From contig NZ_CP037920.1 of the NCBI RefSeq assembly GCF_007748195.1, forward strand, positions 4,291,800-4,355,799: DNA of 64,000 bases, given 5' to 3'. This DNA is from Gimesia aquarii (lineage in GTDB: Bacteria > Planctomycetota > Planctomycetia > Planctomycetales > Planctomycetaceae). Under the pieces are notes generated by a model. The model was given only the letters and a program-made list of their open reading frames with translations, did no database searches and had not been told where the DNA came from. The position numbers and the translations under genes are program-made. Position 1 is the first letter of the stretch, and every line of letters starts with the position of its first letter. Positions 9,188-13,350 of this stretch are shown piece by piece.

Positions 9188-10339
9188 TTACCTGGCAATC
9201 AATTTTATCACCTCGTCCGCAACATGCCGTGCAGCACCTGGAATTGAGATTTCCTGCATCGACTGCCTCATTTGTCTTCTACGTTCATCCTCCTCCAGTA
9301 AAGCAGTTATCGTCTCTCCCAGCAATCTGACAGTGCTATCAGATTCCTTAGACTGCAATGCGATAGTCGCTGCACCCCGGTCTGCATAAAATCGAGCGTT
9401 TTTGAGCTGATGATCCCCAATGGAACCCGGAAAGGGAATAAGGACCGTAGGACACCCCACACTTGCCAATTCTGCAAGTGTGGTTGCTCCTGCTCGGGAG
9501 ATTACCAGGTCAGCTTGCAGATACCAGTTTTTCAGGTCATTAAAGAAGGGCTGAACCGTGACTTTGAGATTTGGATGCCTCTCTCGCAACAGCTCATATT
9601 TTTGCTCAATATTTGAAAAATCAAGTATGCCTGTTTGATGAACCATATGAAGTGGACCGCTTATCTTGTCCAAATACTCTTCCAACATTGAGATTACTGC
9701 AGCATTGACCGCAGTGGCTCCCTGACTGCCTCCTAAGACCAGAATCGAAGTTTTATCAGATGGTGTTGTACTTTTTTCTTTCTGGGAAACTGCTTGAACA
9801 ATTTCCTTTCTGATTGGATTTCCAGTAAATACAATCTCAGGAATCACAGTTTTTCGAGTCATTTTGATTTCAAATGGCGTCTCTGCAAAAGAGGTACAAA
9901 CCAGGTTTGAAAGTGGAAATAAAAATCGATTGGCTCTTCCTGGTACGGTATTCTGCTCCAGTAAGACAATGGGAATCTTGAGACGCGATGCTGCCAATAC
10001 AACTGGTACACTGGCAAAACCTCCCAAGCCAATCACGACTGCCGGCTTTTCTCGTATTAAGAAACGACGCGTCCGAAAGAACGCACGGCTATTATTCCAC
10101 AGAAAACGAAAGGGAGCTCGTTTTAAATCACTCGTTGAGGAAGAAGGTAGGGGAAGATGCTGGTATCCAGAACTTTTAATGATTTGTTGCTCGACTGATC
10201 GATTGGAACCAACAAACGTAATTCGACATTGGCCGAGAGCAACCAACTGCTCAGCGACAGCAATTCCCGGAAGCAAATGACCGCCTGTTCCGCCACCTGC
10301 AAAAACGATCGATTTCGTATCTGAAATGGTTTCGGCCAT
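9188..10339 (-). CDS. murG: UDP-GlcNAc : undecaprenyl-PP-MurNAc-pentapeptide GlcNAc transferase
   Basis: MurG makes lipid II from lipid I on the inner face of the cytoplasmic membrane. The N-terminal 'FAGGGTGGHLLPGIAVAEQL' carries the GGGTGGH loop, 'VIGLGGFASVPVVLAA' and 'LLEQNTVPGRANR' are family signatures, and the C-terminal nucleotide-binding domain has 'LVLGGSQGA' and 'VISRAGATTLAEL' with 'PFPGSIGDHQLKNA' (the usual form is ATDDHQ). The 383-residue length is normal. It starts 89 bases after ftsW and is the last gene of the mur cluster here. Confidence 0.96.
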   Translation of the reverse strand: MAETISDTKSIVFAGGGTGGHLLPGIAVAEQLVALGQCRITFVGSNRSVEQQIIKSSGYQHLPLPSSSTSDLKRAPFRFLWNNSRAFFRTRRFLIREKPAVVIGLGGFASVPVVLAASRLKIPIVLLEQNTVPGRANRFLFPLSNLVCTSFAETPFEIKMTRKTVIPEIVFTGNPIRKEIVQAVSQKEKSTTPSDKTSILVLGGSQGATAVNAAVISMLEEYLDKISGPLHMVHQTGILDFSNIEQKYELLRERHPNLKVTVQPFFNDLKNWYLQADLVISRAGATTLAELASVGCPTVLIPFPGSIGDHQLKNARFYADRGAATIALQSKESDSTVRLLGETITALLEEDERRRQMRQSMQEISIPGAARHVADEVIKLIAR

Positions 10340-10428
10340 GGTACTGAGGAATCACTGCTGAAGATACTTTTAAAGTTCAAAGACTGATTGAAAGTGACAG
10401 CATAGAGGAATTCCACTTAGTTTCCCAG

Positions 10429-12030
10429 TCAAGCCTCCTCTTCATCTTCGTACTCTTCATCTTCGTACTCTTCGTCTTCGTACTCTTCGTCTTCGTACTC
10501 TTCGTCTTCGTACTCTTCGTCTTCGGACTCTTCATCTTCGGACTCTTCATCTTCGTACTCTTCATCTTCGTACTCTTCATCTTCGTACTCTTCATCTTCG
10601 GACTCTTCATCTTCGGACTCTTCATCTTCGGACTCTTCATCTTCGGACTCTTCATCTTCGGACTCTTCATCTTCGGACTCTTCATCTTCGGACTCTTCAT
10701 CTTCGGACTCTTCGTCTTCGGACTCTTCGTCTTCGTACTCTTCGTCTTCGTACTCTTCGTCTTCGTACTCTTCATCTTCGGACTCTTCGTCTTCGGACTC
10801 TTCATCTTCGGACTCTTCAGCCTCATAGATTGGCGATATCATGGCGAGTTCTGAGATCGCTGCCTCTGCTGACAATGAGCTGTCTTCATCTTCACTGATG
10901 GTATCGATGAGTAACTCATCTTCCCCAGTTGATCGCGTCAAGCTGACAATAATACCCAAAGAGAGCAGGCTCACCATCAAATTCGTTCCGCCATAACTAA
11001 TCAAAGGATGCGATATTCCTTTTGGAGGTACCATGGCTGTCACAACCGAAACATTGATAATCGCCTGCAAAACTAACTGTAGTAACAGTGTGAATCCCAC
11101 AACATAAGCAAATGATTTCTGATTTTGTGACCTTAAAATATTGTAACCAGCAAGAAACAATCCTAACCAAAGTCCGACAATCCCAAGTGTTCCAATCAAA
11201 CCAAGCTCTTCACCTGCTACCGAAAACACAAAATCAGTGTTGGCTTCTGGTAGGAAGCTCAATTTTTGAGCACCTTTCCCTAAACCAGATCCAGTCACTC
11301 CACCGGTTCCTAAAGCCATGAGAGACTGTTTGACTTGATAGGGAGCCGATTGCCAATTGGTCCAGGTATCAAGAAATCCACTGATACGTTTTAACTGATA
11401 GGGACGCAATGCGACTAAGACTCCCAATACGGGAATAGCACACAGCCCTCCCACAACAAAGTTGCGCAGAGGCCACCCTCCCAAAAATAACGCGATTGTG
11501 ACGCCACCAACCAGGAAAAGTGAAGTTCCCAAATCGGGTTGTTTCAACACAAGCGGTATAACAATTGCGAGAGGAACCAGTAAAAAGACCGTGCCTTTAA
11601 TCCAATGCTTTAGAACTCTCCTGCGCTGAACCATAAGGCGTACAGTCAGAAGGGGCAGCGCAATTTTAGCAAGTTCAGAAGGTTGCAGTGAGATCGGTCC
11701 AAATCTCAGCCAGCGTTGTGCACCATTCACGCGCGTCCCAATTCCCGGCACAAGCACGAGTGCTAACAACGCAACTGTGACCCAAAAGAGAAGGGGGGCC
11801 CGATCATACCAGAAACGAGCGGGCAGATAAGAAGCAATCGAAGCAACAATGGCGGCAATCGTCAGAAACGTTAAATGCTTTGATAAGTAAACCTGCTCAA
11901 ATTCAGTCGGCCAGGACGTAATACTGGCGCTGTGCACCATGAGCACACCCAACCCCAACAGCGCACATGCCATTGAGATAAAAAGACTGCGATCATGTTC
12001 TGGATTTGATAAAAGCGAAGCCGACTTCAT
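10429..12030 (-). CDS. ftsW: FtsW-type lipid II polymerase (SEDS) with a long acidic repeat tail
   Basis: SEDS proteins polymerise lipid II into glycan strands at the septum or sidewall. Residues 1 to about 375 hold the multi-helix SEDS core with 'PARFWYDRAPLLFW', 'GAQRWLRFGPISLQPSELAKI', 'QPDLGTSLFLVGG', 'PEANTDFVFSVAGEELG' and 'PLISYGGTNLM'. The core is of normal length. The last ~130 residues are cytoplasmic and contain 25 tandem ESEDE/EYEDE pentapeptides, which I do not know from other FtsW proteins. It sits between mraY and murG, the usual position, which favours FtsW over RodA. Its usual partner ftsZ is not in the window. Confidence 0.93.
   Translation of the reverse strand: MKSASLLSNPEHDRSLFISMACALLGLGVLMVHSASITSWPTEFEQVYLSKHLTFLTIAAIVASIASYLPARFWYDRAPLLFWVTVALLALVLVPGIGTRVNGAQRWLRFGPISLQPSELAKIALPLLTVRLMVQRRRVLKHWIKGTVFLLVPLAIVIPLVLKQPDLGTSLFLVGGVTIALFLGGWPLRNFVVGGLCAIPVLGVLVALRPYQLKRISGFLDTWTNWQSAPYQVKQSLMALGTGGVTGSGLGKGAQKLSFLPEANTDFVFSVAGEELGLIGTLGIVGLWLGLFLAGYNILRSQNQKSFAYVVGFTLLLQLVLQAIINVSVVTAMVPPKGISHPLISYGGTNLMVSLLSLGIIVSLTRSTGEDELLIDTISEDEDSSLSAEAAISELAMISPIYEAEESEDEESEDEESEDEEYEDEEYEDEEYEDEESEDEESEDEESEDEESEDEESEDEESEDEESEDEESEDEESEDEEYEDEEYEDEEYEDEESEDEESEDEEYEDEEYEDEEYEDEEYEDEEYEDEEEA
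10441..10815 (-). repeat. 15-bp tandem repeat, 25 units, in the 3' end of ftsW
   Basis: Exactly 375 bases made of 25 uninterrupted 15-bp units. Units vary at two positions only: one choice gives Ser or Tyr (14 ESEDE, 11 EYEDE) and one is synonymous (GAT or GAC for Asp). In protein order the blocks are S3, Y3, S9, Y3, S2, Y5. Each unit is five codons, so gain or loss of whole units keeps the reading frame. The tail ends 'EEA' and the stop follows the array directly. Confidence 0.97.
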
Positions 12031-12243: not shown

Positions 12244-13350
12244 TTACGTTGCAATCTTCAGGCTAGCAATCGCGATAATGGCCAGTAATGCTGAACAAAT
12301 CCAAAAACGAACCACGATTTTCATTTCATGATGTCCTTTGAATAAAAAATGATTGTGCAAAGGACTACAGGCAAGTATGCGGTTTCCTGTTCTCCGAAAC
12401 CAGAACACCTGCAAGATGACGCTTAATGTTTCAGCAACAAATACCCCACCAGCAATCACTAACAATGCCTCCTGGCGAATGACGAGCGCCGCGAATCCCA
12501 ACAACGCTCCCAGAGGCAGCGAACCGGTATCTCCCATGAAAACCTGAGCCGGATAGCAATTGAACCATAGGAAACCAAGAACCGCACCGACGGCGGCTCC
12601 CAAAATAATGCTCATTTCTCCAGCACCAGGAATGTAAGGTACTTGTACATATTCAGCCATCACTTTATGACCGGCCAGGTAGGTTAGTCCGGCAAATGCG
12701 GAACCAGCAAAAACCATACAACCACTGGCCAGCCCGTCCAAGCCATCAGTGAGATTCACAGCATTGGAACTTCCCACCAGCACTAACACTGCCCAGGGGA
12801 CAAAGAATATACCCAGGTAAAAAGTGAGCCGAGTCACAGGCATAATCAAGTCTAAACCAGAAGTTAAACTGGAATTGCTAAACCAGATTCCTGTCCCTAT
12901 CAAGCAGGCAAGCACAATTTGAACAACCAACTTCTGCCGTGGTGTTAATCCATTCCGGTTAGTACTGAGTTTGATCCAATCATCATAAGCCCCCAATAAT
13001 GCGAAACCAGTAGCTGTAAAGATCCCCAACTGTACGTATCGATTTGAAAGATCCGCCCAAAGCAATGCCGAGATCAGGATGGATCCAATAATAAAAATTC
13101 CCCCCATTGTCGGAGTCGCATTTTTAGAGGCATGGATTTCATTAAGCCTGGCAGAAGCACTATCGACCCGTTCGCGAAAGCGTTTTTCCAGCCATCGAAT
13201 TGCGATAGGGCCTAGCAGTATGGCAATTAAAAAAGAAGAGATGCTGGCTAATGCAATCCGCGCAGTAAGAAAGACGCGCGAATCACCCGTTGAAACCACT
13301 TCAAGTTGTTCTAACAAAGGAGAAAATGTCTTCAACAACCAGATTATCAT
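12244..13350 (-). CDS. mraY: phospho-N-acetylmuramoyl-pentapeptide transferase
   Basis: MraY transfers phospho-MurNAc-pentapeptide to undecaprenyl phosphate, making lipid I in the cytoplasmic membrane. About ten membrane helices are visible. Signature stretches are 'KNATPTMGGIFII', 'GAYDDWIKL' (the DDxxK motif), 'SSNAVNLTDGLDGLASG', 'FLWFNCYPAQVFMGDTGSLPLGA' and 'PLHNHFLFKGHHE' (the HHH-type loop). The 368-residue length is normal. A 295-base gap with a terminator-like hairpin separates it from murF upstream, so it may have its own promoter; ftsW follows after 213 bases. Confidence 0.97.
   Translation of the reverse strand: MIIWLLKTFSPLLEQLEVVSTGDSRVFLTARIALASISSFLIAILLGPIAIRWLEKRFRERVDSASARLNEIHASKNATPTMGGIFIIGSILISALLWADLSNRYVQLGIFTATGFALLGAYDDWIKLSTNRNGLTPRQKLVVQIVLACLIGTGIWFSNSSLTSGLDLIMPVTRLTFYLGIFFVPWAVLVLVGSSNAVNLTDGLDGLASGCMVFAGSAFAGLTYLAGHKVMAEYVQVPYIPGAGEMSIILGAAVGAVLGFLWFNCYPAQVFMGDTGSLPLGALLGFAALVIRQEALLVIAGGVFVAETLSVILQVFWFRRTGNRILACSPLHNHFLFKGHHEMKIVVRFWICSALLAIIAIASLKIAT

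Follow-up and report, generated by a model that had tools for sequence, protein, structure and literature searches.

The window analysed here, a 64-kb stretch of DNA from genome G000 (a single 7.4-Mb contig; G-numbers denote the genomes compared and L-numbers the loci read), carries an ftsW-like gene between mraY and murG (Table 1), a position in the division/cell-wall cluster that speaks for FtsW rather than RodA. Further upstream of ftsW lie what we take to be murF and murE, names given from the reading of their open frames without a family scan. The 533-residue product is a member of the SEDS family, with Pfam PF01098 (FTSW_RODA_SPOVE) matching residues 17-367 over profile positions 4-353 of 356. 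The nearest solved structures are the FtsW chains 25hr (2e-60) and 8bh1 (3e-60), and the best NCBIfam model is TIGR02614 (ftsW) at 332 bits, while the RodA model scores 249.6. The name FtsW appears well supported, although that score lies just below the curated cut-off of 337.5. P261, E262, N264, T265, D266 and F267, as well as G273-E274-E275-L276-G277, are invariant in 14 FtsW sequences, and the P261-F267 region presumably holds the catalytic Asp. Elsewhere, G000 has a second, RodA-like gene and two transpeptidase genes. FtsZ was not found in the genus: a search for the FtsZ/tubulin family gave no match in 17 Gimesia genomes, while the control was positive in 13 of 14 well-known genomes, which bears out the initial annotation in assigning the gene to an organism group that lacks FtsZ.

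Table 1. Features at the ftsW locus, with coordinates in the window
Feature	Coordinates	Strand	Basis
murG, adjoining gene downstream of ftsW	9188..10339	-	ORF list and family scan
Alternative-frame ORF, mechanical, 149 aa, KSPKM/KSTKT repeats	10377..10826	-	ORF list
ftsW-like gene, 533-aa SEDS glycosyltransferase with extended C-terminal tail	10429..12030	-	Pfam, solved structures, NCBIfam
ftsW stop codon	10429-10431	-	Sequence reading
Terminal Glu-Ala after the array	10432..10437	-	Sequence reading
In-frame array of 25 x 15 bp encoding (S/Y)-E-D-E-E	10438..10812	-	Tandem Repeats Finder (TRF) and frame reading
Acidic linker, non-repetitive, 39 codons, from last helix to array	10813..10929	-	Coordinates counted back from array start
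mraY, adjoining gene upstream of ftsW	12244..13350	-	ORF list and family scan

The gene had been described initially as an FtsW that ends in a long acidic tail of 25 pentapeptide units, and both TRF and the Pfam match (1.4e-87) confirm this. The array is the only one that TRF reports in the window (10438-10819, period 15, 25.5 copies, 97% matches, no indels, score 624); the coordinates first given to it, 10441-10815, mark a real array and are three bases off the in-frame units at 10438-10812. It had also been called a perfect minisatellite that varies at two positions. Two of the 15 bases indeed vary, one in the codon of the first residue, X (second base, TCC/TAC), and one in the Asp codon (third base, GAT/GAC), so that "perfect" is slightly too strong. 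Residue X follows the order S3 Y3 S9 Y3 S2 Y5, exactly as had been noted, and these six runs are fewer than a random order would give (p = 0.002; p = 0.012 for runs of the Asp codon). The longest exact repeated block comprises only four identical units, which taken alone is no proof of the recent block duplication that had been proposed. The alternative-frame ORF over the array is a by-product of the array's composition. Across 14 genomes this shifted frame is nearly open, with 0-4 stops per tail and a Lys-rich KSPKM/KSTKT reading, and a frameshift ahead of the array would reverse the charge of the tail.

An assembly artefact is argued against by the unbroken contig of G000 and by the recurrence of such an array at the corresponding position of 13 other genomes. 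The AlphaFold model of tailed FtsW (14 rows) has no secondary structure after residue 394, and its pLDDT lies below 50 from residue 368 on; the mean is 51, and parts of the core are of low confidence as well. The C terminus of FtsW is cytosolic in the known topology of the protein. We place the tail on the cytosolic side on the strength of this topology and of homology to solved FtsW, because the core of the model is itself partly uncertain.

Genus-wide distribution and turnover of the array

Among the ftsW genes found, the acidic tail is a genus-wide, single-locus trait. An ftsW gene was found in 14 of 17 Gimesia genomes, and all 14 carry the array; the remaining three (G011, G013 and G015) are fragmented assemblies of 590-1020 contigs without a close ftsW match and were not scored as losses. 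Twelve tails are complete, while those of G012 and G016 run into contig ends after 15 and 2 units, respectively. The complete tails extend 63-176 residues past the last helix, with 3-27 interior units and a net charge of -32 to -119; the shortest arrays have three units (G010) and four (G014). In other Gimesia species the tail ends in LEKE, DLESE-(E/R)-(K/R)S or KN. None of the 15 RodA-like paralogues in the genus has an array, all ending in a short PGYE...EPFRF tail; this count excludes the third SEDS-like match of G015 (L029), which has an internal stop. A dispersed repeat was considered and rejected: among the matches listed for 17 genomes, the two-unit pattern EDEE-x-EDEE occurs only in ftsW and in one ftsK match in G013.

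Outside Gimesia the picture differs. No array was seen in the FtsW of 75 genomes from 49 other genera of the family (76 loci), a set picked for genus coverage from the 133 genomes (53 genera) searched; four genera (g8, g13, g19 and g54) gave weak RodA-like matches only and were left out. The expectation that close relatives would share the acidic tail was thus borne out within the genus and failed beyond it. In these 76 loci the tail past the last helix has a median length of 19 residues, and the longest, at 72, is basic. This longest tail, in the FtsW of genus g29 (L117, L144), is rich in Pro, Lys and Arg and carries the charge opposite to that of Gimesia. Across the class, 79 of 249 genomes have a close FtsW match (E up to 1e-60), and all but one of these belong to this family. 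Among the openly licensed papers listed on FtsW, Gimesia and planctomycete minisatellites, no title or abstract opening describes an acidic repeat tail on FtsW, and the available portion of a paper that treats both Gimesia and FtsW (PMC12288469) makes no mention of one.

Both the length of the array and residue X change quickly. With one genome compared per species, the array has 25 units in G000 and 22 in its sister G003, with the blocks ordered differently, at a 4-fold divergence of 0.045 and a difference of 0.8% in the core protein, as would be expected from the in-frame length change that had been predicted for this repeat. At divergences of 0.10-0.25, G004, G005, G006 and G014 have 12, 14, 8 and 4 units. 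With tandem 15-bp units, in frame, and 3-27 of them among the 12 complete arrays, the locus qualifies as a coding minisatellite. Residue X was scored in 169 interior units of 13 species, with G012 counted apart, using only units between the first and the last exact one; degenerate edge units were left out (FEDEA twice in G004, CEEGE and YEEDE in G010, YEDED in G007). Cys occupies X in 81 of these units, followed by Tyr (46), Ser (29), Pro (6), Phe (5), His (1) and Leu (1). The residue differs between clades on the core-gene tree, a tree with one outgroup and good support for only 3 of its 12 inner branches.

This turnover bears on the suggestion that each unit offers a Ser or Tyr in an acidic context for phosphorylation or sulfation, such that modification of the tail would switch FtsW. 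Within the window species the suggestion is a natural one, since X there is only Ser or Tyr, and the sister G003 adds just two Phe and one His. One would expect a modification site to be preserved, and X is not: no acceptor residue is conserved at this place in relatives, 94 of the 169 units having neither Ser nor Tyr, four arrays (G002, G006, G010 and G014) carrying Cys throughout and G009 having mostly Pro. The idea is not supported by these data, and we consider a regulated tail of this kind extremely unlikely.

Probable selection on charge and competing explanations

While X varies, the acidic quartet is retained. EDEE is exact in 166 of the 169 interior units, over a range of species in which 62% of the 4-fold sites of the FtsW core differ in the median pair. 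We placed the 26 unit types, including those of G012, on a minimum spanning tree. On this tree, which is not unique and whose events are few and incompletely independent, the acidic codons undergo 12 changes, of which 10 either leave the residue as it is or exchange Asp and Glu, against an expected fraction of 0.34-0.36 (P about 0.001 for transition weights of 1-10), whereas only 3 of 14 changes at X are silent (Fisher p = 0.005). With the count restricted to codons 2 and 3, 8 of 10 changes are conservative (P = 0.006), and a hand count that includes the degenerate edge units gives 14 out of 18 (P = 0.0004). The pattern of change favours selection on charge. In G012 the unit is SDEEE in place of SEDEE, of equal charge, and because it retains this charge, what persists would seem to be dense acidity rather than the exact sequence.

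The third bases complicate this reading, being nearly frozen in codon 4 (GAA in 169 of 169 units) and codon 5 (GAG in 166 of 169). Conservation at these two codons may perhaps not act at the level of the protein, and either a nucleotide-level constraint or a slow renewal of the unit is possible. One could argue, then, that the GA-rich array is kept as DNA or RNA, for example as a recombination signal or a translation signal before murG, with the peptide incidental. The near-invariance does contrast with the invariant Glu and Asp codons of the FtsW core, for which, on average, 36% of species pairs disagree. Yet freezing is not peculiar to the array, as 2 of 10 such core codons are silent-invariant across the 14 species too. 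Within the unit, codon 2 is free to vary (0.53), and all four letters occur at the second base of X. The altered codon order of G012, which keeps the charge, likewise does not fit a nucleic-acid element. A habit of the genome may lie behind codon 4, given that GAA comes first in 1210 of 1524 Glu-Glu pairs in our sample. On balance we think it very unlikely that the nucleic acid, rather than the peptide, is what is maintained.

How unusual such a tail is in this genome was gauged from a 1.66-Mb sample of G000 (22% of the genome), made up of the window and 80 further 20-kb stretches. Coding arrays do arise now and then: among 77 TRF rows, weaker ones included, three other coding arrays have a unit of at most 15 bp and a score above 150, namely, KPAPA x14, KPDP x9 and an Asp-His run, and among arrays with units of that size the ftsW array scores highest. 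A general acidic habit of the genome could be rejected as an explanation, the ftsW tail being the only 60-residue stretch of the sample with at least 30 Asp or Glu in open frames of at least 100 codons. Some features of the other arrays may be recorded. The KPAPA array, of 15-bp in-frame units (L246, 15821-16029), lies near the N terminus of a large protein (PSCyt; open frame of 911 aa) with several homologues per genome; the composition of the tract is kept in 16 of 17 orthologous loci (the 16 that are readable), and the unit has decayed in many. The protein with KPDP x9 (L209, 3928-4036) is matched in full only in G000. The Asp-His run (L244, 498-579) stands at the C terminus of a protein that, as we presume, resembles a LarC-type nickel insertion protein. 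In three Gimesia genomes FtsK carries a densely acidic linker ahead of a Lys-rich stretch (L082 in G013, L293 in G003 and L294 in G000); this linker was dismissed as a genus-specific match to the tail, as acidic FtsK linkers are also present in several other genera of the family (G085 and G076 are examples).

We favour the reading that the disordered acidic tail on FtsW is maintained by selection, at a probability of roughly 0.55. Several observations weigh against it. Arrays as short as those of G010 and G014 persist, so that length would not be critical; other coding minisatellites occur in the same genome; codons 4 and 5 hardly vary at their third bases; and in Planctopirus limnophila, according to the part of the report available, ftsW can be deleted without a defect in growth or division, so that selection may be weak (PMC6952346). 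Much of the same evidence is what makes a tolerated repeat a serious rival, one that is somewhat less likely but may be correct: an acidic seed past the last helix would have been amplified in the Gimesia ancestor, and the C terminus of a dispensable enzyme would accept any soluble disordered extension. The free variation in length and in X, the presence of other coding arrays, of which KPAPA keeps its composition while its unit decays, the non-essential status of ftsW in P. limnophila and the diverged FtsW tails of related genera, one of them Lys/Arg/Pro-rich, all agree with such tolerance. It accounts less readily for a quartet kept in nearly every unit, where amino-acid changes are biased to Asp and Glu, and for an array in every Gimesia FtsW found.

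A candidate role and its relation to known systems

For a selected tail, we propose that the in-frame 15-bp minisatellite adds a disordered polyanion to the cytosolic side of Gimesia FtsW. Slippage or unequal exchange would supply the changes in length, and purifying selection would retain the Asp/Glu quartet, with X as a free spacer. More tentatively, multivalent electrostatic attraction to the tail might keep a basic partner or cations close to the FtsW synthase in cells that have no FtsZ ring; we regard such a tether as doubtful, though the tail as a binding platform, as the initial annotation had it, is possible. A bolder version, which we think rather improbable, is that a polyanionic cloud built into FtsW partly replaces the missing FtsZ scaffold. 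Its charge would be fixed by selection and its reach tuned by slippage, and a basic partner or cations would be gathered where the bud forms; the synthase would in this way be its own assembly platform, of fast-evolving length.

The search for a partner counts against the tether: neither charge correlations across 12 species nor inspection of the FtsI N terminus in 14 genomes revealed one. The net charges of MurG (rho 0.72) and FtsI (rho 0.91) both rise with the acidity of the tail; PSCyt follows them more weakly (0.55, p = 0.06), RodA runs the other way (-0.76, 11 species), and PBP2 (-0.05) and the FtsW core (0.12) have no trend. Phylogenetic contrasts lower the MurG value to 0.30 (7 of 11 of the same sign) and the FtsI value to -0.13, and the two clades of lowest GC are those with the most basic MurG, FtsI and PSCyt. 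The charge correlations of MurG and FtsI were set aside, being taken as an effect of composition and kinship. Nor does FtsI offer a basic counterpart: the N-terminal segment ahead of its helix is short and has no basic repeat. The net charge of FtsI (L151-L164) itself differs strongly between species (+22 in G003, -3 in G010), with the highest values in the low-GC clades.

For the question of how planctomycetes divide without FtsZ, a genus-specific, fast-changing tail of conserved charge provides a small handle that can be deleted. The tail could serve as bait for partners, and the natural variants of 3 to 27 units allow comparison of lengths. It is also a clean case for following how slippage and selection would jointly shape a disordered part of a bacterial enzyme.

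Among known systems, the C-terminal linker of FtsZ is likewise a disordered, length-variable segment on a division protein. The Gimesia tail shares both properties; it differs in sitting on a membrane synthase, in being acidic and in being encoded by a homogeneous minisatellite. In Mycobacterium tuberculosis, a charged C terminus joins FtsW to a division protein, and the acidic side of this FtsZ-FtsW contact lies on FtsZ (Datta et al. 2002, as given in the accessible part of PMC3989709). The Gimesia tail is not this arrangement, because the aspartates there belong to FtsZ, whereas in Gimesia the acid is on FtsW and FtsZ was not found. Closer at hand are the FtsW proteins of other Planctomycetales, for example that of P. 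limnophila (406 aa; excerpt of PMC6952346), which also come from an FtsZ-less group. In those examined the SEDS core has 37-63% identity, and they differ in their short tails without an acidic array. Deletion of ftsW in P. limnophila gave rounder cells with normal growth and budding, as stated in the same excerpt (PMC6952346), and the non-essential status of the gene is restated in the available text of PMC10632474. A role of the tail related to shape rather than to viability would fit these data, and so would a tolerated repeat. Finally, the array resembles the coding satellites described for prokaryotes, in which, as far as the accessible part of PMC6749651 relates, unit lengths are divisible by three and the product carries amino-acid repeats; it differs from them as one conserved, genus-wide locus in a cell-wall synthase.
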